A stretch of DNA of 64,000 nucleotides from Murinocardiopsis flavida (GTDB taxonomy: Bacteria; Actinomycetota; Actinomycetes; Streptosporangiales; Streptosporangiaceae), in contig NZ_PYGA01000015.1 of the NCBI RefSeq assembly GCF_003014485.1, forward strand, positions 62,001-126,000. The letters are read 5' to 3'. A program made the translations under genes and the position numbers. Numbering within the stretch: position 1 is the first letter of the stretch; the number at the start of each line of letters is the position of its first letter. The notes under the pieces are model-generated. The model was not told where the DNA came from. It did no database searches and was given only the letters and a program-made list of their open reading frames with translations. Of the stretch, positions 984-9,457 are shown one piece after another.

Positions 984-1874
984 TCACTCGATCGGTTCGC
1001 CGACCATGCCGGAGCAGGGCGCGCCGGGCTCGGGGGTCTGCGGCCCCTGCTGGTACTCGCGGATGAACGCGTCGACGCGGTCGTCATCGGCGGACTCCAG
1101 GATGAGCTGCTTGCCCCACGCCGACAGCACGACCGGCCCCGGAAGGTCCTCGATCGGGCTGACGACCAGGTAGTCGCCGGTGGAGTACCGGCCGCGCAGT
1201 GACTCCACGTCCTCGGCGGGCAGGTCCGGGTCGTGGCTGATCCACACCGCGCCGTGCTCCAGCGAGTGCACGGCGTTCTCGGCGGGGACCTCCTCGTCGT
1301 AGACGCCGCAGTTGAGCCACTCCTGGCGGTGCTCGCCGCCCACGGGCGGGTGCTGCGGGTAGTCCACCGGCGAGTCGGTGTGCTCGGGGGAAAGGTCGTC
1401 GAAGCTCACGACGCCGTCGAGGTCGGAGTCGGCGACGTGCCCGCCCGGCTGCGTGGGGCCGGGTTCGGTGGAATCGCCCAGGAACATGTAGGCGCCCACG
1501 GCGCCGCCGCCGATGAGGACGAACAGCGCCACCACGACACCGACGACGATCCACGGCGCCGCGCTCCCCCGCTTGGGCGGTGGCCCCTGCGGATGGGCGC
1601 CCGGGGGCCAGTGGGGCGGCTGCGGCGGACCGGGCGGGGCGCCACCCGGGTGCTGCTGCTCCCGGCCGGGCGGGGGGCCGCCCGGATACGGGTACTGGCC
1701 GGGCGGGTACGCGCCCGGGGGGTAGGGGCCGGGCGGCGGGGGCTGCTGCCCTTCGGGGGGAGCCATCGCCGGACCCGGACCGCCCTCGTACTGCCGGGGG
1801 CCGGGCCCGGGCTGCTGCGGATTCGGGGGCGGGGGCGGGGCGCCGTGCCCGTACGGGTCCTGGGGATTCACCAC
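984..1874 (-). CDS. DUF3105 family membrane-anchored protein with proline-rich N-terminus
   Basis: The 296-residue protein has three parts. Residues 1 to about 100 are a cytoplasmic tail made almost entirely of Pro, Gly, Tyr and Gln. Residues 107-132 are one hydrophobic membrane segment. The rest is an extracytoplasmic domain that matches the DUF3105 pattern, including the HPPVGGEH and WLNCGVYDE stretches, a SLEHGAVWI core and a C-terminal PCSGM. DUF3105 proteins are common in actinobacteria and their biochemical role is not established; His and Cys residues in the core could bind a metal, which is inference. The ATG at 1874 is used because the Pro-rich tail is continuous from it. The tail resembles those of actinobacterial proteins that assemble at the membrane. 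Confidence 0.85.
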   Translation of the reverse strand: MVNPQDPYGHGAPPPPPNPQQPGPGPRQYEGGPGPAMAPPEGQQPPPPGPYPPGAYPPGQYPYPGGPPPGREQQHPGGAPPGPPQPPHWPPGAHPQGPPPKRGSAAPWIVVGVVVALFVLIGGGAVGAYMFLGDSTEPGPTQPGGHVADSDLDGVVSFDDLSPEHTDSPVDYPQHPPVGGEHRQEWLNCGVYDEEVPAENAVHSLEHGAVWISHDPDLPAEDVESLRGRYSTGDYLVVSPIEDLPGPVVLSAWGKQLILESADDDRVDAFIREYQQGPQTPEPGAPCSGMVGEPIE

Positions 1875-1967
1875 AGGCGCACCTTACCGTCCGCGCGGCC
1901 GCCCACCGCGTGGTCCAGTGGTGCGAGCGACCGGGCGCCGCCGCCGGCCTGCCCGTCGCCTCCGAGG

Positions 1968-2888
1968 TCAGTGCGGGGCGCGGGCGACGACGAGGGCCAT
2001 GGCGTGCGGCGGGGTCCGCACCTCCTGCACGTCGACGTACCCCGCCATGACCAGGCGTGCCGCCAGCTCCCCCGCGTCCCACGGTGTGCTCCCCATGCGG
2101 TCGACCCGCCACCTGAGGACCGCTTCGCGCCTGGTCCCCCTTTCCTCGGGAGCGCCGCGCAGGGCGGTGGCGCTGATCAGCAGGCCGCCGGGCCGCAGCG
2201 CACCGCGGATGCGCGGCAGGGCTTCGGCGGCGGCGGCCGTCCCGATCACCGACAACGGGAGCCACGCGAGATCGTAGGCGCCGGCGTCCGTGAGTGCCGC
2301 GACGTCCTCCAGCCGCAGTTCGACGCGGTCGTCCAGCCGCCGCTCGGCGAGGTGGGCCGCTGCCAGCCGGAGGGCGCGCGGCTGCACGTCGATCCCCACC
2401 GCGCGTGCGCCGGGGACCCGGGCCGCGACCTCGGCGGCTATGGCGCCGATGCCGGTCCCGACATCGAGGAACCGGAGTCCTTCGGAGCGGAGCAGGCCGC
2501 CGACGCCGGGGAGCCGCGCGGCCAGCAGGTCCAGGTATTCACCGAATTGCGCGCCGGAGTTCCTGCCCTCCGCGGTGAAGACGGCGTCGTCGTCTCCGTC
2601 GGGGCGGGCCGGGACGCCCTCGGCCGCGTCGGCGGCCTGGCGCAGTATCCGTCCGATGCGTCCCGGGAAGGCGTCCGCATCCGGCCGCCCCGCGAGTTCC
2701 GCACGGTGGTCCGGCCGCAACCGCCATCCCTCGGAAACCCGTTCGGCGAGACCCGCGGCGCCGAGGACGGCGCCGTGCTCCTCGGAAAGCGGTTCGCCGT
2801 TGACCGCGGACGCGAACGCGGCGAGCACCCATGCGTCGGTCATCAGCGCGTCGACGCGGGCCGCCAGCCGCGGTTCCGATGTCGCCAT
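1968..2888 (-). CDS. Class I SAM-dependent methyltransferase
   Basis: The protein of 306 residues carries a short N-terminal helical, winged-helix-like part and a Rossmann-type methyltransferase domain. The SAM-binding motif LDVGTGIGAIA is clear, followed by an acidic strand end (VGIDVQP) and a motif II/III region ending in LRPGGLL. This layout is like that of small-molecule O-methyltransferases, where the N-terminal part helps dimerisation. The ATG at 2888 was chosen over an upstream ATG at 2960 because family homology begins with the helical MATSEPRL stretch. It faces away from the small ORF and YcaO gene that start 140 bases further on. A role in modifying that peptide is possible but is only suggested by position. 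Confidence 0.85.
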   Translation of the reverse strand: MATSEPRLAARVDALMTDAWVLAAFASAVNGEPLSEEHGAVLGAAGLAERVSEGWRLRPDHRAELAGRPDADAFPGRIGRILRQAADAAEGVPARPDGDDDAVFTAEGRNSGAQFGEYLDLLAARLPGVGGLLRSEGLRFLDVGTGIGAIAAEVAARVPGARAVGIDVQPRALRLAAAHLAERRLDDRVELRLEDVAALTDAGAYDLAWLPLSVIGTAAAAEALPRIRGALRPGGLLISATALRGAPEERGTRREAVLRWRVDRMGSTPWDAGELAARLVMAGYVDVQEVRTPPHAMALVVARAPH

Positions 2889-3031
2889 GGCGTGAGTGTG
2901 CCAGTCCGGACACCAGGCGCGCACCACCGCGGAAATGGGCGGCACTTCGACCCGTGACATATCGGGCGCGGTGCGTTAGAAATTTGGAGGACCGAGCACG
3001 ACGCCTATTGGGACCGATCGAGGAGTGAAGC

Positions 3032-3145
3032 ATGGCCTGTGCCGGATATGACCTGACCGTGTCGCTCGACCACGTCGACGCCGTCGAACTCGATGTCGAG
3101 GAGCTCGACGAGGAGACCGTGCGGGAGCCCGTTGCCGCGGTCTGA
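3032..3145 (+). CDS. Small acidic peptide, candidate RiPP precursor or orphan leader (37 aa)
   Basis: An AGGAG ribosome binding site at 3021-3025 lies six bases before this ATG, one of the best sites in the window, which argues that the 37-codon ORF is translated. The peptide has eleven acidic residues and only one Arg. Residues 19-29 read ELDVEELDEET, like the acidic leader segments of thiopeptide and other YcaO-modified precursor peptides. It stops after Pro-Val-Ala-Ala-Val, exactly where such leaders usually pass into a Ser/Thr/Cys-rich core, and no core is present; the only Cys is residue 3. The next gene encodes a YcaO protein and starts inside or at the end of this ORF. It could be a precursor whose modified residues are not Cys/Ser/Thr, a leader-like regulatory peptide, or a decayed precursor. 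Confidence 0.6.
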   Translation: MACAGYDLTVSLDHVDAVELDVEELDEETVREPVAAV

Positions 3146-4541
3146 GTGGTTCGACCCCGCCGACCGGGCGACCGACGGCTTCGGCCGCCCGGTCGGCGGG
3201 GGGACCGGCGACTGGCCGGGCGGCGGCGAGCGCGAGCTGCCGCTCGACGCCGCGGAGCGCCGGGTCCGGTCCGACATCGACGCCCTCGGCTGGCGGGCCC
3301 GTTCGCGGGTGCTCGACCGCGCCGACCCCACGGCGACCCAGTGCGAACTCTGGCACCAGGACGGGACCGAGGTCCCCTACGGCCTCGGCAGCGGCAAGGG
3401 GGCGCATGCGCCGGCCCACGTCGGCGCGATGTTCGAGGCGCTGGAGCACGCGTTCAGCGGCCCCTTGATCCGGGAGTCCCTGGCCGTCGAGCTCCATGAG
3501 CCCCGCGAACTCCTCACCGGGCCGGTGGGCGCCGACCGCGCCGTCCATGATCTCGCCCACCAGCCGGACGCGCGGGTGGCGTGCCTGCCGTACGCGGCTC
3601 TCGACGGCGGCCCCTCCTTCCCCGCTCCCCTGTCCCTCTGGGCACCGTGGTTCCCCATCCCCACCGACGGCATGGCGGACTACCGGTCCCGTGTCGGCGA
3701 CACCGCCGACTACCGCACCCTGCTCTCCTACACGGTCAACACGGGGTGCGCCATCGGCGCCACCCGTGAGGAAGCCCTCCTGCACGCTCTGAACGAGTGG
3801 GCGGAGCGCGACGCGTTCTCCCTGTTCCTCCTGCGCAGCGTGTACGACCGCGGCCCCATGCCCGCCCGCGTCCCCGACACCGCGCTGCCCGGGTTCCTGC
3901 ATGCGCGGCTGGACCGCGCGTCGGCACTCGTCGGCAGCCGCGTCGTCCTGCTGGACCTGACCACCGACCTGCGGGTTCCGGTGGTCATGGCCGTCGCTCC
4001 GGGGCTCGCGGGCGGATCGGCGCGCTACTACGCTCTCGGCGCGTCGTTGTCGGGCGAGACCGCAGTGGACCGTGCGGTGACCGAGTTCGTCCAAGGGGAA
4101 CTGCTCGCCAGAGTCGTCGCCGAGCACGACACGGCGTCAGCGGCCGACGGACGGCCCGCCGAGCGTCCCACGTTCGACCGGGTCGTCGCCGAGCACGACA
4201 CCGCCTCTGCGGTGCGCGATCGGCTCGCCGCACACCCGCGGTTGCTCGCCTGCGCCCACCTGGACTTCGCCGACCGGATCGGCGAGGCGCCGCTCACGGG
4301 CATGCCCGCCGAGACCGTCCCGCGCGGGACCGGCGTCCCCGCGCAGCGCGCCGCGGTGGTGGCGCGGTTCGCCGCCGCCGGCCACCGCGTGGGAGCGTAC
4401 ACCCTCACGAAGCTCCCCCATGGGACCACGGTCGTCCAGGTGCAGTGCCCCGGCCTGGAGAGGTTCCACCTGATCACCAAGGGCCATCTCGCCCTCCCCG
4501 GAGCGCGCGGCCGCCGCCTGCGCGCCGGGCGAACGGTGTGA
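3132..4541 (+). CDS. YcaO domain protein (ATP-dependent peptide backbone-modifying enzyme)
   Basis: YcaO enzymes use ATP to activate peptide amides and install azolines, thioamides or amidines. Two typical ATP-binding stretches are visible. The first, GSGKG followed by MFEALEHA, is near residues 85-107; the second, a Gly-Cys-Ala-Ile-Gly, EEALLHALNEWAERDAF stretch, is near 205-229. A third block, ALGASLSGETAVDRAVTEFVQGE, matches the later family signature. The C-terminus lacks the Pro-x-Pro-x-Pro tail of azoline-forming cyclodehydratases, and no ThiF-like E1 partner, dehydrogenase or protease gene is nearby. The start is uncertain: TTG 3132 has GGGAG four bases upstream, and ATG 3093 has no clear site. 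Either choice overlaps the small acidic ORF, implying coupled translation. An in-frame 23-residue duplication sits near residues 327-360. Confidence 0.88.
   Translation: MPRSEWFDPADRATDGFGRPVGGGTGDWPGGGERELPLDAAERRVRSDIDALGWRARSRVLDRADPTATQCELWHQDGTEVPYGLGSGKGAHAPAHVGAMFEALEHAFSGPLIRESLAVELHEPRELLTGPVGADRAVHDLAHQPDARVACLPYAALDGGPSFPAPLSLWAPWFPIPTDGMADYRSRVGDTADYRTLLSYTVNTGCAIGATREEALLHALNEWAERDAFSLFLLRSVYDRGPMPARVPDTALPGFLHARLDRASALVGSRVVLLDLTTDLRVPVVMAVAPGLAGGSARYYALGASLSGETAVDRAVTEFVQGELLARVVAEHDTASAADGRPAERPTFDRVVAEHDTASAVRDRLAAHPRLLACAHLDFADRIGEAPLTGMPAETVPRGTGVPAQRAAVVARFAAAGHRVGAYTLTKLPHGTTVVQVQCPGLERFHLITKGHLALPGARGRRLRAGRTV
4113..4201 (+). repeat. In-frame direct repeat inside the YcaO gene, period 69 bases
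   Basis: The twenty-base stretch at 4113-4132 recurs at 4182-4201, and both encode the peptide RVVAEHDTASA. The offset is 69 bases, so 23 residues are duplicated without shifting the frame. The downstream copy has diverged at third positions, so it is not a very recent event. It lies between the second ATP-binding block and the C-terminal part of the enzyme. Confidence 0.85.
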
Positions 4542-4886
4542 CGCTCGGCGCACTGCACCCGGGCCGGGAGCGCTCCCCTGACTGGGAGCACTCCCATCCG
4601 CCGCGGAATCGCACAACATTCCACCAATACTGCGAAAACCACGGGTTTCGAGCCGGTTGACCTCCGGGGAAGCATTGTTCCGCGGAATCACCGACTGAAG
4701 ACCCGAGGTCCTTATTGACCTGCGGCTACGATTTTTTATAACGGCCGCGGAACGGCAGCGCGCCCGAATCCGGGTCCGGAAACCGCGCGAATTCACGGCC
4801 TGCGGAGCAGGGCGGAGAACCCTTATCGTCTGGACGGCTCGCGATTTCCGGCGCGCCCCTTCTCCGTACTAGATCCGGGGGATCCG
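4542..4886. other. 345-base intergenic region with two tandem GGGAGC palindromes
   Basis: No gene was recognised here, and base composition is lower in GC than the flanks, with a run of six T near 4732. At 4566-4577 and 4583-4596 are two 12-14 base palindromes, GGGAGCGCTCCC and TGGGAGCACTCCCA, whose centres are about 17-18 bases apart. The second closely resembles TGGGAGCGCTCCCA, the operator of LacI-family CebR-type regulators. The two could instead fold together as a GCTCCC/GGGAGC hairpin and end the YcaO transcript. The region probably also holds the promoter for the gene starting at 4887. Confidence 0.5.
4566..4596. promoter_or_regulatory. Tandem LacI/CebR-like palindromes (or terminator)
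   Basis: Two perfect palindromes of the GGGAGCnCTCCC type lie head to tail 25 bases after the YcaO stop codon and 291 bases before the pilin-like gene. LacI-family operators are palindromes with a central CG, and the first copy fits; the second has CA at its centre. A terminator reading is equally possible because the right half of the first and the left half of the second form a six-base-pair stem with a six-base loop. Confidence 0.4.
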
Positions 4887-6326
4887 TTGTTCCGTGCGCA
4901 GCGCCGCGCCCGTGCCGATCCGGGCGCATCGACGGCGGAGTACGCGGCGGTGATCGTGTTGGCGTCGGCCCTGATGAGCGCGCTGTTGGTGGCCGGGGTG
5001 CCAACCGACGTCACCAGCAGTGTCCAAGCGGCGATCTGCCGCCTGTTCGGGACGAGTTGCGAACCGCCGCCGAAGGGCGACCCCGACGCCGCCTATCTGC
5101 CCAAGCGCTGCGAGGTCTACCAGAAACAGGAAAAGGCAGGGTACTCGACCTACATCGGAATCTTCAAGTTCGGGGACGAATTCGCGTTCATGGAACAGCA
5201 GATGGCCGATGGGACCTACCGGATGACCCTCATCCCGCACAATGCCGAAATCGGCGTAGAGGGAAAACTCTTCCAACTGAAAGGTGAAGGCGGGTCGAAC
5301 TTCCAGCTGGGCGGCGAGGCCAAGATCGGCGCGTACCTCAAGGGGTCGGTCGGCGACACCTGGGTGTTCAAGGACAAGGCCGAGGCCGATTCCTTCCGCG
5401 ACGACATCTTCGAGAACCAGGCCGCGATGGACGCCATGTCGCGCAACCCCGGAGCGGGCCTCTACTACGCGATCAACCCGCCGCCCGAGATCCCCGACCC
5501 GCAGATGACGACGGCCACCACCCGGCTCGAAGCCGGGGGCAACGCCGAACTGGGCCTCAGCGCGAAGGACTCCAAGGCCGAGAAATACTTCGACATCGGC
5601 ACGGGGATCAACGGCAGGGCGAAGGTGGGCGGCCAGGTCGCCGTCCGCACCGACAACCGCAGGCCCGACGACCCCTCGTACCCCCTCACCGCCACCACCT
5701 ACCAGCTCGACGGCCAGCTCGGAGCGGGGAGCGAGGTCGCCGGCGACGGGCTGGAGAACGCCGGCGAGTGGACCGGGGCCGTGCGCATCACCCGCAACAA
5801 GCAGGGCGAGCCCGTCGAGATCATGTACCTGACCTCGGTCGAGGAGTCGCTCGTCGGCAAGAACCGGGTCGGCGGCAAGGGGGATGGCGCCAAGGGCGGC
5901 TACAAGGGCAAGGACGGCGAGAGCTCGCTCCAGGAGTCGCGCACGGTCATCGAGCTGAAGACCCCGGAGGAGCGCCGCATCGCCGAGGAGTACATCGACG
6001 AACAGGGCCTGCTGGGGATGCCCGCTCTGGCGTTCAACCAGGTCATGGACGAGGGGGACGCGCTCCTCACCGAGCCGCCGCCGGGCGCGGGCGAGTTCGA
6101 GAAGCTCATGTACGAGAAGGCGTGGGTCTCGAGCATCGTCCAGGACAAGACCTCCAGCCAGGACACCTTCGGCGGCAGGATCGCCCTCGGCGCCGGGCTC
6201 GGCATGAAGGTCTACACCGGGTCCTCCGAGGCGCGCACGGTCGAGTCCGAGTACCTCGGGGCGCCCGGGGACGACGGCCGCCGCCGGTTCGAGGAGTTCC
6301 CCGCCTGCCTGGCGGAGCCCGGATGA
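4887..6326 (+). CDS. Surface protein with pilin-like N-terminal segment fused to a large unknown domain
   Basis: The 479-residue protein begins with a short basic tail, then Gly-Ala-Ser-Thr-Ala-Glu-Tyr at 13-19 and a hydrophobic run to about residue 37. This is the pattern of class III signal segments in Flp/TadE-type pilins, where cleavage follows Gly and a Glu lies a few residues on. Instead of a short pilin, about 430 residues follow, rich in Gly, Lys and Glu. Their short alternating strands suggest a beta-rich extracellular domain; two early Cys pairs could form disulfides. I recognise no named domain in it. The start codon is TTG with a G-rich site before it. No prepilin peptidase or Tad assembly gene is in the window. 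A surface or secreted role is inferred from the N-terminus. Confidence 0.75.
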   Translation: MFRAQRRARADPGASTAEYAAVIVLASALMSALLVAGVPTDVTSSVQAAICRLFGTSCEPPPKGDPDAAYLPKRCEVYQKQEKAGYSTYIGIFKFGDEFAFMEQQMADGTYRMTLIPHNAEIGVEGKLFQLKGEGGSNFQLGGEAKIGAYLKGSVGDTWVFKDKAEADSFRDDIFENQAAMDAMSRNPGAGLYYAINPPPEIPDPQMTTATTRLEAGGNAELGLSAKDSKAEKYFDIGTGINGRAKVGGQVAVRTDNRRPDDPSYPLTATTYQLDGQLGAGSEVAGDGLENAGEWTGAVRITRNKQGEPVEIMYLTSVEESLVGKNRVGGKGDGAKGGYKGKDGESSLQESRTVIELKTPEERRIAEEYIDEQGLLGMPALAFNQVMDEGDALLTEPPPGAGEFEKLMYEKAWVSSIVQDKTSSQDTFGGRIALGAGLGMKVYTGSSEARTVESEYLGAPGDDGRRRFEEFPACLAEPG

Positions 6327-6387
6327 CCCCCGCCGGACCGCGCACGCACCGGGGCGCGGCCCACCGCGCCGCCGAAGAGGAGCACGC

Positions 6388-6786
6388 ATGAGGACCTGGC
6401 TGTGGGCGCTCGCCGTTGCCACGGGCGGAATCCTCGCCGCCCTTGCGGGCGCCCTCCTGTCGGGGGCGCTGCTGGCGGGGCTCTACCGGACCGGGGCGGA
6501 CAGCGGTGCCGCGGACACCGCGACGGTCGCGGGGGTCGTGGGGACGGGCCTGATCGCCGCGGCGGCAGCCTGGGCGGGGATCGCGCTGCTCTCGGCCCGC
6601 ACGCGCCTGGGCCGGTGGGCGGCGGCGATCGGCGCGGTCGGCCCGTTGGCGGGAACGGCCCTGGTCCTCGTCCCGTTCGCGCTGGGCCCCGGTTCGGCGG
6701 GCATCACCGCCGCCAACGCCGCCGCCGCGCTCGCGGGCACGGCCCTCGCCGTGGTCCCCGCCCTGCGTTCCCCCGGCCCCCGCTGA
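6388..6786 (+). CDS. Small four-helix membrane protein of unknown function
   Basis: This 132-residue protein is almost wholly hydrophobic, with four predicted membrane segments at about 5-31, 45-68, 77-99 and 105-125. They are separated by short Arg/Thr/Gly loops, and the protein ends in a basic SPGPR tail. No known family signature was recognised. A GAGGAG site lies nine bases before the ATG. It starts 61 bases after the pilin-like gene on the same strand, so the two may form one transcript. It could assist membrane insertion of that protein, but nothing in the sequence tests this. It converges with the glutamate transporter gene, whose stop is only 22 bases away. Confidence 0.75.
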   Translation: MRTWLWALAVATGGILAALAGALLSGALLAGLYRTGADSGAADTATVAGVVGTGLIAAAAAWAGIALLSARTRLGRWAAAIGAVGPLAGTALVLVPFALGPGSAGITAANAAAALAGTALAVVPALRSPGPR

Positions 6787-6808
6787 CCGGCGGCGGGGGT
6801 GCCATGGG

Positions 6809-8185
6809 TCAGGTGCCGGTGCGCGCCCGTGCTGCGGGGCGCTGCCAGATCTTGAGGATCCGCGCCAGGAGGTAGACCAGCGCGGCGGCGACGACCCCGC
6901 CGACTCCCAGGGCCCACGGCCCGTAGTTCACGGCGATCAGCGGCAGCATCGCTGTGAGCAGGCCGCCGCCGACGATCGGGCTGAAGAAGGGCGCGCGCAG
7001 CGCGTAGGAGCGGGCCGCGTCGGTCTTGAGGTCGGGGTCCGCCGACCGCAGCAGCATCAGTCCGACGGAGGCCACGGCCGTCTGCGACCCGAAACTGACG
7101 ATGGAGTGCTCGAACCACGCGTCGCGGAACAATCGCGGCCCCGCCCAGTAGAAGAAGCCGACCGCGATCACCGCGGCGACGGCGACGAGGATCGCGAGCG
7201 GGACGATGTTGTCCACCACCACCGGGACCGTGATCGAGGCGACCGCGGAGACGACGAGCAGGTCGAGGGCGACACCCTGGATGGCGCGCAGGCTGCCGGG
7301 GTCGACCGCGTCCCCCAGCCGGGTCCGCGCGATGGCCGCCTGCACGATGGCGCCGCCGATCATCGCCATGGGGAACAGCGGCATGCCCGGCACGACCAGG
7401 CCGAGGAGGTACTGGAACACCCAGCCGATGAGGACCGCCGCGGCGATCAGCGCCCCGTGGAACGCCAACCCGTCCACCAGGTCCTTGTTCAGCGTGACGT
7501 TCCCGAGTACGGGCCGGGACCCCGCGGGCAGCACCTCGGGGGCATAGCCGCCACCGTCGCCGCCACCGGTCGGGGTGCTGAGGTCGCCGCGGCGGGCGGC
7601 GACGTTGATCAGCACCATCCCCACCACGATCCCGAAGATCAGCCCGGCCGTTGCACTGGCAAGGGCGAGCGCGCCGCCGTCGGCCCAACCCAGCTCGGTG
7701 TAGACCGGTCCCATGCCGGCGGCGGTGCCGTGCCCGCCCGGCCAGCCCACCTCGATGATGGTGCCGAACATCGCGCCGACGTCCCAGAACGGCATCAGCA
7801 GCGCCGCGCAGACCAGCATGGGGACCCCGATCATCAGGAAGTCGCTCATGTAGCCGAACAGGAGCTGCGGCGCGATCAGGTGGTAACTGGTGCGCGGGTT
7901 GGGGATGCGCATCCCGATGAGCATCGGAGCGAACACGATGGTGATCAGCACCCCCGGCAGCCCGGCCCATGTGGTGATCATGCTCTCGGGGAACAGTCCG
8001 GCCCCGTACGGCCCGAGGGCCGCGCCGAGGACCCCGCCGATGAGAGCGGCCGGGATGAAGAGCCTCCGCAGCGGGGCGATCAGCAGCCGCAGTACGACCC
8101 CCGCGAGCACGAGGAGGCCGAGGACGGTGCAGGCGAAGAGGAGGGTGTTGACGGCATCGCCGCTGACTTCGTCTGTCGGGAACAT
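6809..8185 (-). CDS. gltS: Sodium/glutamate symporter (GltS family)
   Basis: GltS proteins import glutamate with sodium ions through the cytoplasmic membrane. The 458 residues contain about ten to twelve hydrophobic segments arranged as two halves. Family stretches are visible, including RRLFIPAALIGGVLGAALG near the N-terminus and GWPGGHGTAAGMGPVY in the first re-entrant loop. The corresponding second-half stretch is VSFGSQTAVASVGLMLLRS. The ATG at 8185 is preferred to that at 8203 because an AGGAG site lies just upstream of it. The next gene upstream on this strand encodes a FAD-dependent amino-acid or amine oxidase, and a divergent RpiR regulator follows. The three look like one uptake and catabolism unit for glutamate or a related amine. 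Confidence 0.88.
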   Translation of the reverse strand: MFPTDEVSGDAVNTLLFACTVLGLLVLAGVVLRLLIAPLRRLFIPAALIGGVLGAALGPYGAGLFPESMITTWAGLPGVLITIVFAPMLIGMRIPNPRTSYHLIAPQLLFGYMSDFLMIGVPMLVCAALLMPFWDVGAMFGTIIEVGWPGGHGTAAGMGPVYTELGWADGGALALASATAGLIFGIVVGMVLINVAARRGDLSTPTGGGDGGGYAPEVLPAGSRPVLGNVTLNKDLVDGLAFHGALIAAAVLIGWVFQYLLGLVVPGMPLFPMAMIGGAIVQAAIARTRLGDAVDPGSLRAIQGVALDLLVVSAVASITVPVVVDNIVPLAILVAVAAVIAVGFFYWAGPRLFRDAWFEHSIVSFGSQTAVASVGLMLLRSADPDLKTDAARSYALRAPFFSPIVGGGLLTAMLPLIAVNYGPWALGVGGVVAAALVYLLARILKIWQRPAARARTGT

Positions 8186-8278
8186 GCTGCTCCTTGTGAG
8201 CAAGGACCGGTGCGGGTGCGGCGGATCCCCATGGGGTTCCGCACGCTGTTCCGCTCGGCCGGACCGCGGGGCGGCCGG

Positions 8279-9412
8279 TCAGAACCTGTCGAATGAGAAC
8301 GGGGCGAGGCTGTCCGGGCGCGCGCCGGTGCGCGCCCAGAACGTGAGGGCTTCGGCGACCGCGGGCGCGATGGCGAAGCCGTGTCCGGTCCACCCGGTGC
8401 CCACCAGGGCGTTCTCGGTGCCGGGGATGCGGTCGATGATCGGGATCTCGTCGGCGCTGCACGACTCCGGCTGGGAGGTCTCGGCGATGTCGAGTCGGGC
8501 GTCGGCGAGCCCGGCGTACACCTCGGCCGCGGCGCGCAGGTTGCCCTGCACGTTCGCCTCGATGGGCTCCCCCCGTCCGAGGTCGGCGTTCCAGCGGCCG
8601 CGCCATCCGCCGCTCACCATGACGCCGCCGTCGGGAAGGGCCTTCAATGACAGCGAGCGGTGGTCGTGCCCGATGAGATGTGACATGGGCGGCGCGGCCT
8701 TGGGGGTCACCCGCAGCGCCTGCGGCAGGATGCGCCAGACCGGCAGGTGCACGTCGAACTGGTCGCGGAGCAGGTCGACCGCTCCGGTGTTGTTCAGCAC
8801 CAGCAGCGCCTGCCCGATCTCGTAGCGCTGCCCCTGCGCCGTGCGGACGGCGGTGGCCCTGCCCTCGGAGCGCTCGACGGCGGTGACGGCGCTGTGCTCT
8901 TTGACGGTGGCGCCCCGCGCCTCGGCGGCGGCAGCGTACGCCCTGGTGGTGGCGGTGTGGTCGGCGCTTCCGTCGAGCGGGCAGTACAGCGCTGCGCGTA
9001 CCTCCGGGCCGACGCCGGGTTCGAGGGCGAGGACCCTGTCGCGCCCCAGGACCTCGGTCGGCACGCCGAGGCCCCGTTGCACCGCCGCTTGGGCGTCGGC
9101 GGCGACGAGCCCGCCTTTGGTGCCGGTGGTCTCCTGCTCGATGAGGGACATGCCGCCGGTTCGCTCGTATCCGGTCTCGGCGCCCAACTGGTCGGCGAGC
9201 GTCGGCCAGATGCGGTACGCCGCCCGCATCAGGGGCATTTCACGCAGGTCGCGCCGGTTGCCGCGGACGCCGCGCCGGCCGAAGCCGCCGGAGGCCCCTG
9301 AGGCGATCTCGCCGGCTTCGAGGAGGAGGACGTCCTCCCCCGCTGCGGCGAGCAGCCACGCGGCGGCGCATCCGTTGATGCCACCGCCGATAATCACGAA
9401 CTGGTGCTTCAT
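8279..9412 (-). CDS. FAD-dependent oxidoreductase of the DadA/sarcosine-oxidase (DAO) family
   Basis: The enzyme should oxidise the C-N bond of an amino acid or secondary amine, with FAD as cofactor. The N-terminus has a dinucleotide fold FVIIGGGINGCAAAWLLA at residues 4-21, then the acidic LLLEAG strand that binds ribose, and the SGASGGFGRRG loop. The C-terminal GTGWTGHGFAIAP stretch is typical of DAO-family flavin sites. The ATG at 9412 is used, with an AAGGA nine bases upstream; the longer reading from 9445 adds an unrelated tail. It lies 93 bases upstream of gltS, so it probably shares its transcript. A divergent RpiR-type regulator starts 76 bases away and an inverted repeat lies between them. 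Confidence 0.87.
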   Translation of the reverse strand: MKHQFVIIGGGINGCAAAWLLAAAGEDVLLLEAGEIASGASGGFGRRGVRGNRRDLREMPLMRAAYRIWPTLADQLGAETGYERTGGMSLIEQETTGTKGGLVAADAQAAVQRGLGVPTEVLGRDRVLALEPGVGPEVRAALYCPLDGSADHTATTRAYAAAAEARGATVKEHSAVTAVERSEGRATAVRTAQGQRYEIGQALLVLNNTGAVDLLRDQFDVHLPVWRILPQALRVTPKAAPPMSHLIGHDHRSLSLKALPDGGVMVSGGWRGRWNADLGRGEPIEANVQGNLRAAAEVYAGLADARLDIAETSQPESCSADEIPIIDRIPGTENALVGTGWTGHGFAIAPAVAEALTFWARTGARPDSLAPFSFDRF

Positions 9413-9457
9413 TCGAACTGGTCCTTGCTGTGTGGTCGGCCTCACAGGGGACAGTAG

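Follow-up and report, generated by a model that had tools for sequence, protein, structure and literature searches.

The locus considered here raises the question of what a standalone YcaO enzyme would act on when the small open reading frame (ORF) overlapping its gene seems to encode a leader with no core behind it. The window, that is, the whole stretch of 64,000 nucleotides of Murinocardiopsis flavida DNA that was analysed, carries a 37-codon ORF at 3032-3145 on the plus strand, whose product, MACAGYDLTVSLDHVDAVELDVEELDEETVREPVAAV, was read in an earlier note as an acidic leader ending where a Ser/Thr/Cys core should begin. In the reading developed below, this small ORF would be a RiPP precursor gene, and the standalone YcaO encoded by the overlapping gene would modify its peptide. 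The features of the window on which the argument draws are the following.

1968-2960, minus strand: class I SAM methyltransferase gene, divergent from the pair; ORF start at 2960, with the ATG at 2888 as the other possible start.
2954-2982, plus strand: candidate promoter GTGACA-N17-TAGAAA, 49 bases before the ATG of the peptide gene.
3021-3025, plus strand: AGGAG, Shine-Dalgarno (SD) sequence of the peptide gene, with the ATG six bases further on.
3032-3145, plus strand: proposed precursor peptide gene (core plus follower), kept at each of the 22 loci in its clade, 20 of them aligned.
3035-3070, plus strand: proposed core, residues 2-13, ACAGYDLTVSLD, its C-terminal limit being provisional; Ala2 and Cys3 are invariant in 20 of 20 MAC-type peptides.
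3071-3142, plus strand: proposed acidic follower, consisting of the motif ELDVEELDEET and the tail VREPVAAV, from the alignment of 20 MAC-type peptides.
3123-3127, plus strand: GGGAG, SD-like sequence of the YcaO gene, lying within the terminal part of the peptide gene.
3132-4541, plus strand (start about 3132, inferred TTG): standalone YcaO of 469 aa, bottromycin-type clade.
6809-8203: 464-aa ORF with no Pfam match, by eye membrane-protein-like, not adjacent to the pair.
8279-9445: FAD-dependent oxidoreductase (DAO), within the Pfam-scanned stretch, not adjacent to the pair.

The arrangement first described for this locus, a small SD-preceded ORF overlapping a standalone YcaO gene beside a divergent methyltransferase, was confirmed from sequence coordinates and Pfam matches, as was the AGGAG placed six bases ahead of the ATG. 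The two genes of the pair are interlocked in the window: the likeliest start of the YcaO gene is the TTG at 3132, which gives a 14-base overlap, the tail VREPVAAV of the peptide runs over this start, and the GTC-TGA end of the peptide gene lies within the YcaO reading frame. In many relatives, peptide gene and YcaO gene do not overlap. Upstream of the pair, a GTGACA or ATGACA box with a 16-18 base spacer, located at a distance of 48-60 bases, was the best-scoring element in 17 of the 22 loci of the window's clade, a count made with no shuffled control. A strict sigma-70 promoter scan of 2850-4900 returned no match, GTGACA-N17-TAGAAA included, and a terminator scan of the same interval found none.

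The YcaO of the window matches PF02624 over the full profile (113.6 bits, profile positions 1-325), and when 34 YcaO sequences of the family were aligned, E222, E225, D227, E318, and Q321 proved invariant. An AlphaFold2 model of the enzyme built from 11 sequences (pLDDT 81.8, pTM 0.86) was compared with the PDB, and all 41 chains matched at E up to 0.001 were YcaO enzymes, among them 4v1v (3.8e-14), 4bs9 (7.5e-11), and 6gos (2.4e-8). With Pfam, the seven ORFs examined in the window (984 to 9445) gave no match to any family of the E1/ThiF-like, TfuA, FMN-dehydrogenase, or protease kind, in agreement with the earlier observation that E1, dehydrogenase, and protease genes are absent beside the pair. 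Downstream of the YcaO gene, the protein encoded at 4887-6326 matched DUF4244 weakly, below the cutoff, in its N-terminal part and did not cluster with neighbours of the pair in other loci. When seven proteins were submitted to PADLOC, the YcaOs remained without a match, and the methyltransferase of the window gave a generic methyltransferase match (mad2, 59 bits). The window peptide matched no NCBIfam model at E up to 0.1, and hence not the bottromycin precursor model NF033414; 10 relatives of this peptide gave no NCBIfam match at E up to 10.

When 341 genomes of the window organism's family were searched at the protein level, 73 returned YcaO matches at E up to 1e-15. Together with Goodfellowiella and Actinosynnema, these make up the 75 loci considered here; both belong to a group of 10 named-genome loci, which also included Actinomadura rudentiformis, several Nocardiopsis, and Streptomonospora, and whose other eight members were taken as already counted. 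A class-wide search at E up to 1e-30, with at most four candidates scored per genome, yielded the enzyme in at least 11 of 394 genomes, mostly of the window's family. A small SD-preceded ORF starting with Met-Gly or Met-Ala was found at the YcaO start in 74 of the 75 loci, so that both the peptide and its ribosome-binding site, whose conservation had been proposed as a check, are kept in relatives. The first set contributed 58 peptides from 59 loci, 55 of them with ATG starts (54 chosen beforehand plus L054) and three with GTG starts that were identified by eye (L072, L073, and L091); no peptide was found at the YcaO start of L059. In the second set, all 16 loci had a peptide, picked by eye from the listed ORFs, that of L163 beginning with GTG.

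An automatic rule (ATG, SD, Gly or Ala as second residue, 28-62 codons, end near the start of the downstream gene) was satisfied at 56 of the 59 YcaO loci of the first set, through another ORF in the case of L091, versus 19 of the 703 further genes at these loci. The initial ORF listing was restricted to Met-Ala or Met-Gly starts, and a separate check was made with this filter dropped. Without it, Gly or Ala occupied the second position in 19 of 124 small SD-ATG ORFs ahead of other genes, and in 57 of 259 ordinary called genes; at the YcaO loci, 17 further small ORFs appeared, including the L054 peptide and several longer versions of the same peptides. The pairing of peptide and YcaO is above chance, with 74 of 75 loci set against 19 of 703 control genes. 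Judged by this conservation, which supports the original impression of a stripped-down RiPP-type locus made of a peptide and a standalone YcaO, the locus is a real, conserved, minimal RiPP-type pair.

Three loci deserve separate mention. The YcaO match of L079 (genome G133) falls into two overlapping pieces in different frames, and on the evidence of its sequence this gene is either frame-broken or affected by a sequencing error. L147 (G063) contains a YcaO relative whose sequence is split between frames and has no visible peptide gene ahead of it; this copy appears to be decaying. The most distant member of the YcaO clade described below, L146 (G969), stands outside the family, and a Met-Gly small ORF (MGITRTERVVRPVVVV...) is located just upstream of its YcaO gene.

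The layout of the peptide was approached through its close relatives. In the 20 MAC-type peptides, the Met-Ala-Cys start is invariant, the middle stretch is variable, and the EELDEET motif is again conserved, with alignment columns 25 (E) and 26 (L) invariant and columns 27 (D) and 28 (E) kept in 19 of 20. The conserved blocks are therefore the N-terminus (MACAGYD...) and the acidic C-terminal motif, and 13 of the 20 peptides stop at 31 residues, with DEETAE or one of its variants immediately before the end, so that a C-terminal core would have no place. A conserved N-terminus, a conserved acidic end, and peptides that finish right after the motif suggest that the core is N-terminal and that the acidic part is a follower, a layout that we regard as very probable. 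This was not how the locus had first been read: the notion of a leader lacking its core is at odds with peptides whose conserved parts are the N-terminus and the acidic motif and most of which end right there, a lost core does not fit a peptide that every one of the 22 loci in its clade has kept intact, and the suggested modification of the C-terminal Val would concern a tail that is absent in 13 of 20 peptides and overlaps the inferred YcaO start in the other seven. Substitution patterns back the layout only within one core type: among the 14 MACxGY-type peptides, pN/pS was 0.26 in columns 2-13 versus 0.76 in columns 14-33, whereas over all 20 MAC-type peptides, including the switch to MACASLMMSSP, regional values were alike (0.55, 0.65, and 0.59).

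More distant loci encode other N-termini, such as MGNVVDYVPVESLDR, MGNSNSNGQSLL, MGIRTWDSVGGG, MGAAYEPAF, and more, mostly followed by a stretch of the LTxAExxxLEEL type. Core types are strongly conserved within clades and sharply different between them, and the enzyme belongs to one family throughout. The precursor families themselves are poorly alike: with an HMM of 30 MG-type peptides, the score of the bottromycin precursor was reached by 10 of 3000 shuffles, that of the window peptide by 176 of 3000, and that of the L074 peptide by 2441 of the 2521 shuffles reported. A common origin of all precursor peptides, considered on sequence grounds, is not established.

Further clues to the function of the pair came from the relationship between the family YcaOs and the two YcaOs of bottromycin clusters. 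In a maximum-likelihood tree that included the enzymes of 34 of the 59 loci of the first set and left out the split YcaO of G063, the 34 family members, four bottromycin YcaOs, and the G969 enzyme formed one clade (100/100), apart from 13 other YcaOs, with a poorly supported branching order inside the clade. An HMM built from the 34 family sequences gave 266 and 258 bits for the second bottromycin YcaO of two clusters and 63 and 69 bits for the first, compared with 181 for the split YcaO of G063, 142 for that of G969, and 129 or less for other reference YcaOs. All 34 family enzymes score higher against the second than against the first bottromycin YcaO; for the window enzyme the values were 82.4 and 44.3 bits, the blastp match to the second one covering residues 190-464 only. 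Since the branch of the first bottromycin YcaO is long (3.35 versus 1.15 for the second), this nearer score may reflect divergence and not shared function. The genome of the window carries two more PF02624 matches, which are neighbours on a different contig and whose open frames measure 747 and 1065 aa:

G000:C2:47247-50068 (locus L149): the two other YcaO-domain matches of the genome.

Their scores against the family HMM were low (57.8 and 7 bits), and in the tree the first of them falls among the other YcaOs.

By gene order and by name, the second bottromycin YcaO would be the macroamidine-forming BtmF. In passages of Crone 2016 (PMC5103208), macroamidine formation in vivo needs BtmF together with BtmI, and BtmE is implied in thiazoline formation; the same passages make cyclisation contingent on removal of the Met and describe Met-Gly-Pro as poorly handled by host enzymes. 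Pro at residue 3 occurs in none of 57 family peptides, and no conserved amidohydrolase that could be the counterpart of BtmI was found at the family loci. Both bottromycin YcaOs function without a partner protein, as stated in a passage of PMC8442711. The bottromycin precursor was found in 0 of 396 genomes of a phylum-wide sample and in two of 392 genomes of one genus.

With these elements, the following route can be proposed. The follower would dock on the YcaO, and the host methionine aminopeptidase would take off Met1, a removal proposed because residue 2 is small (Gly or Ala). The YcaO, with ATP, would then activate a backbone amide within the first few residues, the free N-terminal amine would close on the activated amide to give an amidine, the methyltransferase would methylate the product, and an unlinked protease would cut off the follower. 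We lean, with slightly better than even confidence, towards a minimal follower-guided RiPP in which the YcaO would form a ring near the N-terminus once this has been freed, with an amidine as the likeliest closure; for the amidine as the product of the YcaO taken by itself, our confidence falls a little short of even. Both this confidence and that in the reading as a whole are limited by the length of the branch that carries the first bottromycin YcaO, and by the presence of a Cys, Ser, or Thr by residue 12 in 54 of 57 peptides. Indeed, in these 57 peptides, which include neither L054 nor the 16 peptides of the second set, residues 2-8 are free of Cys, Ser, and Thr in 24 and of Cys in 35, so that an azoline within the first eight residues cannot be the shared reaction; over residues 2-10, only 14 peptides lack all three, and within residues 2-12, the 54 mentioned above have at least one. 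Thus, the longer the core is taken to be, the weaker this argument becomes, and an azoline situated slightly further in would still be compatible with this count.

The main alternative, rather unlikely in our estimate, is that the YcaO of the window's clade would make a thiazoline at the invariant Cys (Ala-Cys), with the layout still core first and follower last. Residue 3 is Cys in 22 of the 22 MAC/MGC peptides of this clade, which would suit a thiazoline there, and the YcaO taken as the bottromycin thiazoline enzyme falls in the same clade as the family and, like it, has no Pro-rich C-terminus. A Pro-rich C-terminus is known from azoline-forming YcaOs. As judged by eye, it is absent from the family and also from both bottromycin YcaOs, and it was dropped as a test of azoline versus amidine because neither bottromycin enzyme has one. 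Azolines are, moreover, common YcaO products (a passage of PMC8442711). Against a thiazoline stand the 24 peptides with no Cys, Ser, or Thr in residues 2-8, which exclude a family-wide azoline in that stretch but not one in this clade, and the closeness of all 34 enzymes to the other bottromycin YcaO, subject to the caveat of branch length.

The partner genes differ between clades. All 22 MAC/MGC loci have the divergent methyltransferase beside the pair, and it was seen in none of the remaining 53; it probably tailors the modified peptide, and it had no homologue among the ORFs of two bottromycin loci (best phmmer E 0.28). Peptides of the MGxxxDY/F type occur in 31 loci (22 of the first set and nine of the second), and in 29 of these, the exceptions being L062 and L013, a NACHT ATPase gene directly follows the YcaO gene, versus none of the 44 others. 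Examples of these genes, found also in 26 further loci, are:

L053:9575-11770: NACHT NTPase gene.
L056:5250-7451: NACHT NTPase gene.
L044:5715-8033: NACHT NTPase gene.

In 12 of the 29 NACHT loci, a protein of the Trypsin_2 plus Endonuclease_NS type is also present (seven of the first 20 NACHT loci versus 0 of 39 others, hypergeometric p 2.3e-4, and five of the nine later ones). These assignments are based on Pfam scans of three NACHT proteins and one trypsin-nuclease protein, and PADLOC gave weak ATPase matches for the NACHT proteins and a weak protease match for the trypsin-nuclease protein. The NACHT loci have the look of immune-type islands with a YcaO-modified peptide at their base. Peptides of the MGNSNSN/D type accompany the same YcaO family in L074-L077 and L163-L165, with an MFS-type gene after the YcaO gene in L074, L075, and L077 (one of them Pfam-scanned).

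The association with NACHT genes bears on another reading, according to which the peptide would be an N-terminally modified carrier, signal, or regulator acting in the cell, with no released product, and working perhaps with the adjacent methyltransferase or, where the sister clade is concerned, with its NACHT ATPase. This appears unlikely, more so than a thiazoline. The position of the NACHT ATPase as the next gene in 29 of 31 MGxxxDY/F loci is consistent with it, as are the strong conservation of cores within clades and the absence of known families of proteases or exporters from the seven window ORFs scanned. However, cores that differ sharply between clades while the enzyme stays within one family are what RiPP precursors display, and the MFS-type gene that follows the YcaO gene in three loci of one group also argues against a peptide that would never be released.

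Formation of a thioamide near the N-terminus by the YcaO is very unlikely. Standalone YcaOs are capable of it together with TfuA (a passage of PMC8442711), but no TfuA family was detected among the seven neighbours scanned, and the methyltransferase is the only neighbour that clustered in most loci of the window's clade. Thioamidation and E1-dependent azole formation were accordingly set aside, their partner genes being absent among the seven ORFs scanned. Finally, a leader that has lost its core, or a leader-YcaO fusion produced by +1 frameshifting as the earlier note had suggested, can be dismissed as highly improbable. The acidic motif does look leader-like, and the YcaO frame runs open through the peptide stop codon, both in the window and at 43 of 55 loci. 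However, the position of the YcaO frame with respect to the peptide frame is not conserved (+1 in 27 of these 55 loci, +2 in 20, and identical in eight), the YcaO gene of the window has its own SD and start, and the N-terminus of the peptide is conserved in close relatives.

If the amidine-forming reading is extended to all loci, a broader picture emerges that is offered as speculation and that we consider doubtful: a large one-enzyme macroamidine RiPP family, more extensive than bottromycin and perhaps its origin, in which the YcaO would seal the freed Met-Gly or Met-Ala N-terminus, a methyltransferase would finish the product in one clade, and a NACHT ATPase, often with a trypsin-nuclease nearby, would be wired in within the sister clade, where the modified peptide would act as the signal or trigger of an immune-type system. 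With a single family of enzymes serving widely differing short N-termini, a minimal set of genes, and a presence in 73 of the 341 genomes searched, the family would offer a simple system to test follower recognition by unfused YcaOs and the choice between azoline and amidine. It also suggests why the expectation of a leader followed by a C-terminal Ser/Thr/Cys core, whether held by a reader or by a mining tool, makes precursors of this kind seem coreless. In the literature, as far as titles, the beginnings of abstracts, and passages go, no description of this pair was found, and the networks in the supplement of PMC8442711 may include the family. Before streptamidine, bottromycin and klebsazolicin were the only amidine RiPPs counted, according to a passage of that paper.

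Compared with known systems, the window enzyme has the YcaO fold and the ATP site in common with the azoline-forming LynD, TruD, and McbD but, unlike these, has no other Pfam domain and no adjoining partner gene, and YcaOs other than the second bottromycin enzyme score far below it with the family HMM. Streptamidine (ami clusters; Russell et al., 2021, PMC8442711), which passages of that paper describe as found by mining small ORFs near unfused YcaOs, is an actinobacterial amidine RiPP made with an unfused YcaO, as is proposed here. Its precursor, however, is described there as consisting of leader, core, and follower, whereas a core and a follower are proposed for the window peptide; in the same passages, streptamidine needs genes for AmiB (with an E1-like fold), a hydrolase, a dehydrogenase, and a Fec-type transporter, and AmiD has a Pro-rich C-terminus. 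None of these partner families was found among the seven window ORFs, motifs A/B and AmiB being without a model for comparison. As for bottromycin (btm/bot/bmb; NF033414), the window locus is not one: NF033414 is unmatched, the cores differ from those of the window family, a single YcaO takes the place of two standalone ones, and the tailoring genes are missing, with no radical SAM methyltransferase, P450, amidohydrolase, or M17 aminopeptidase detected by Pfam among the seven window ORFs. The likeness lies in the Met-Gly start, in standalone YcaOs without an E1 partner that fall in one clade with the family, and in a precursor that, in the passages seen in PMC7136475 and PMC10885120, has an N-terminal core and a C-terminal follower, the order proposed here. 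The window pair probably works in the manner of the follower-guided YcaO chemistry of bottromycin.
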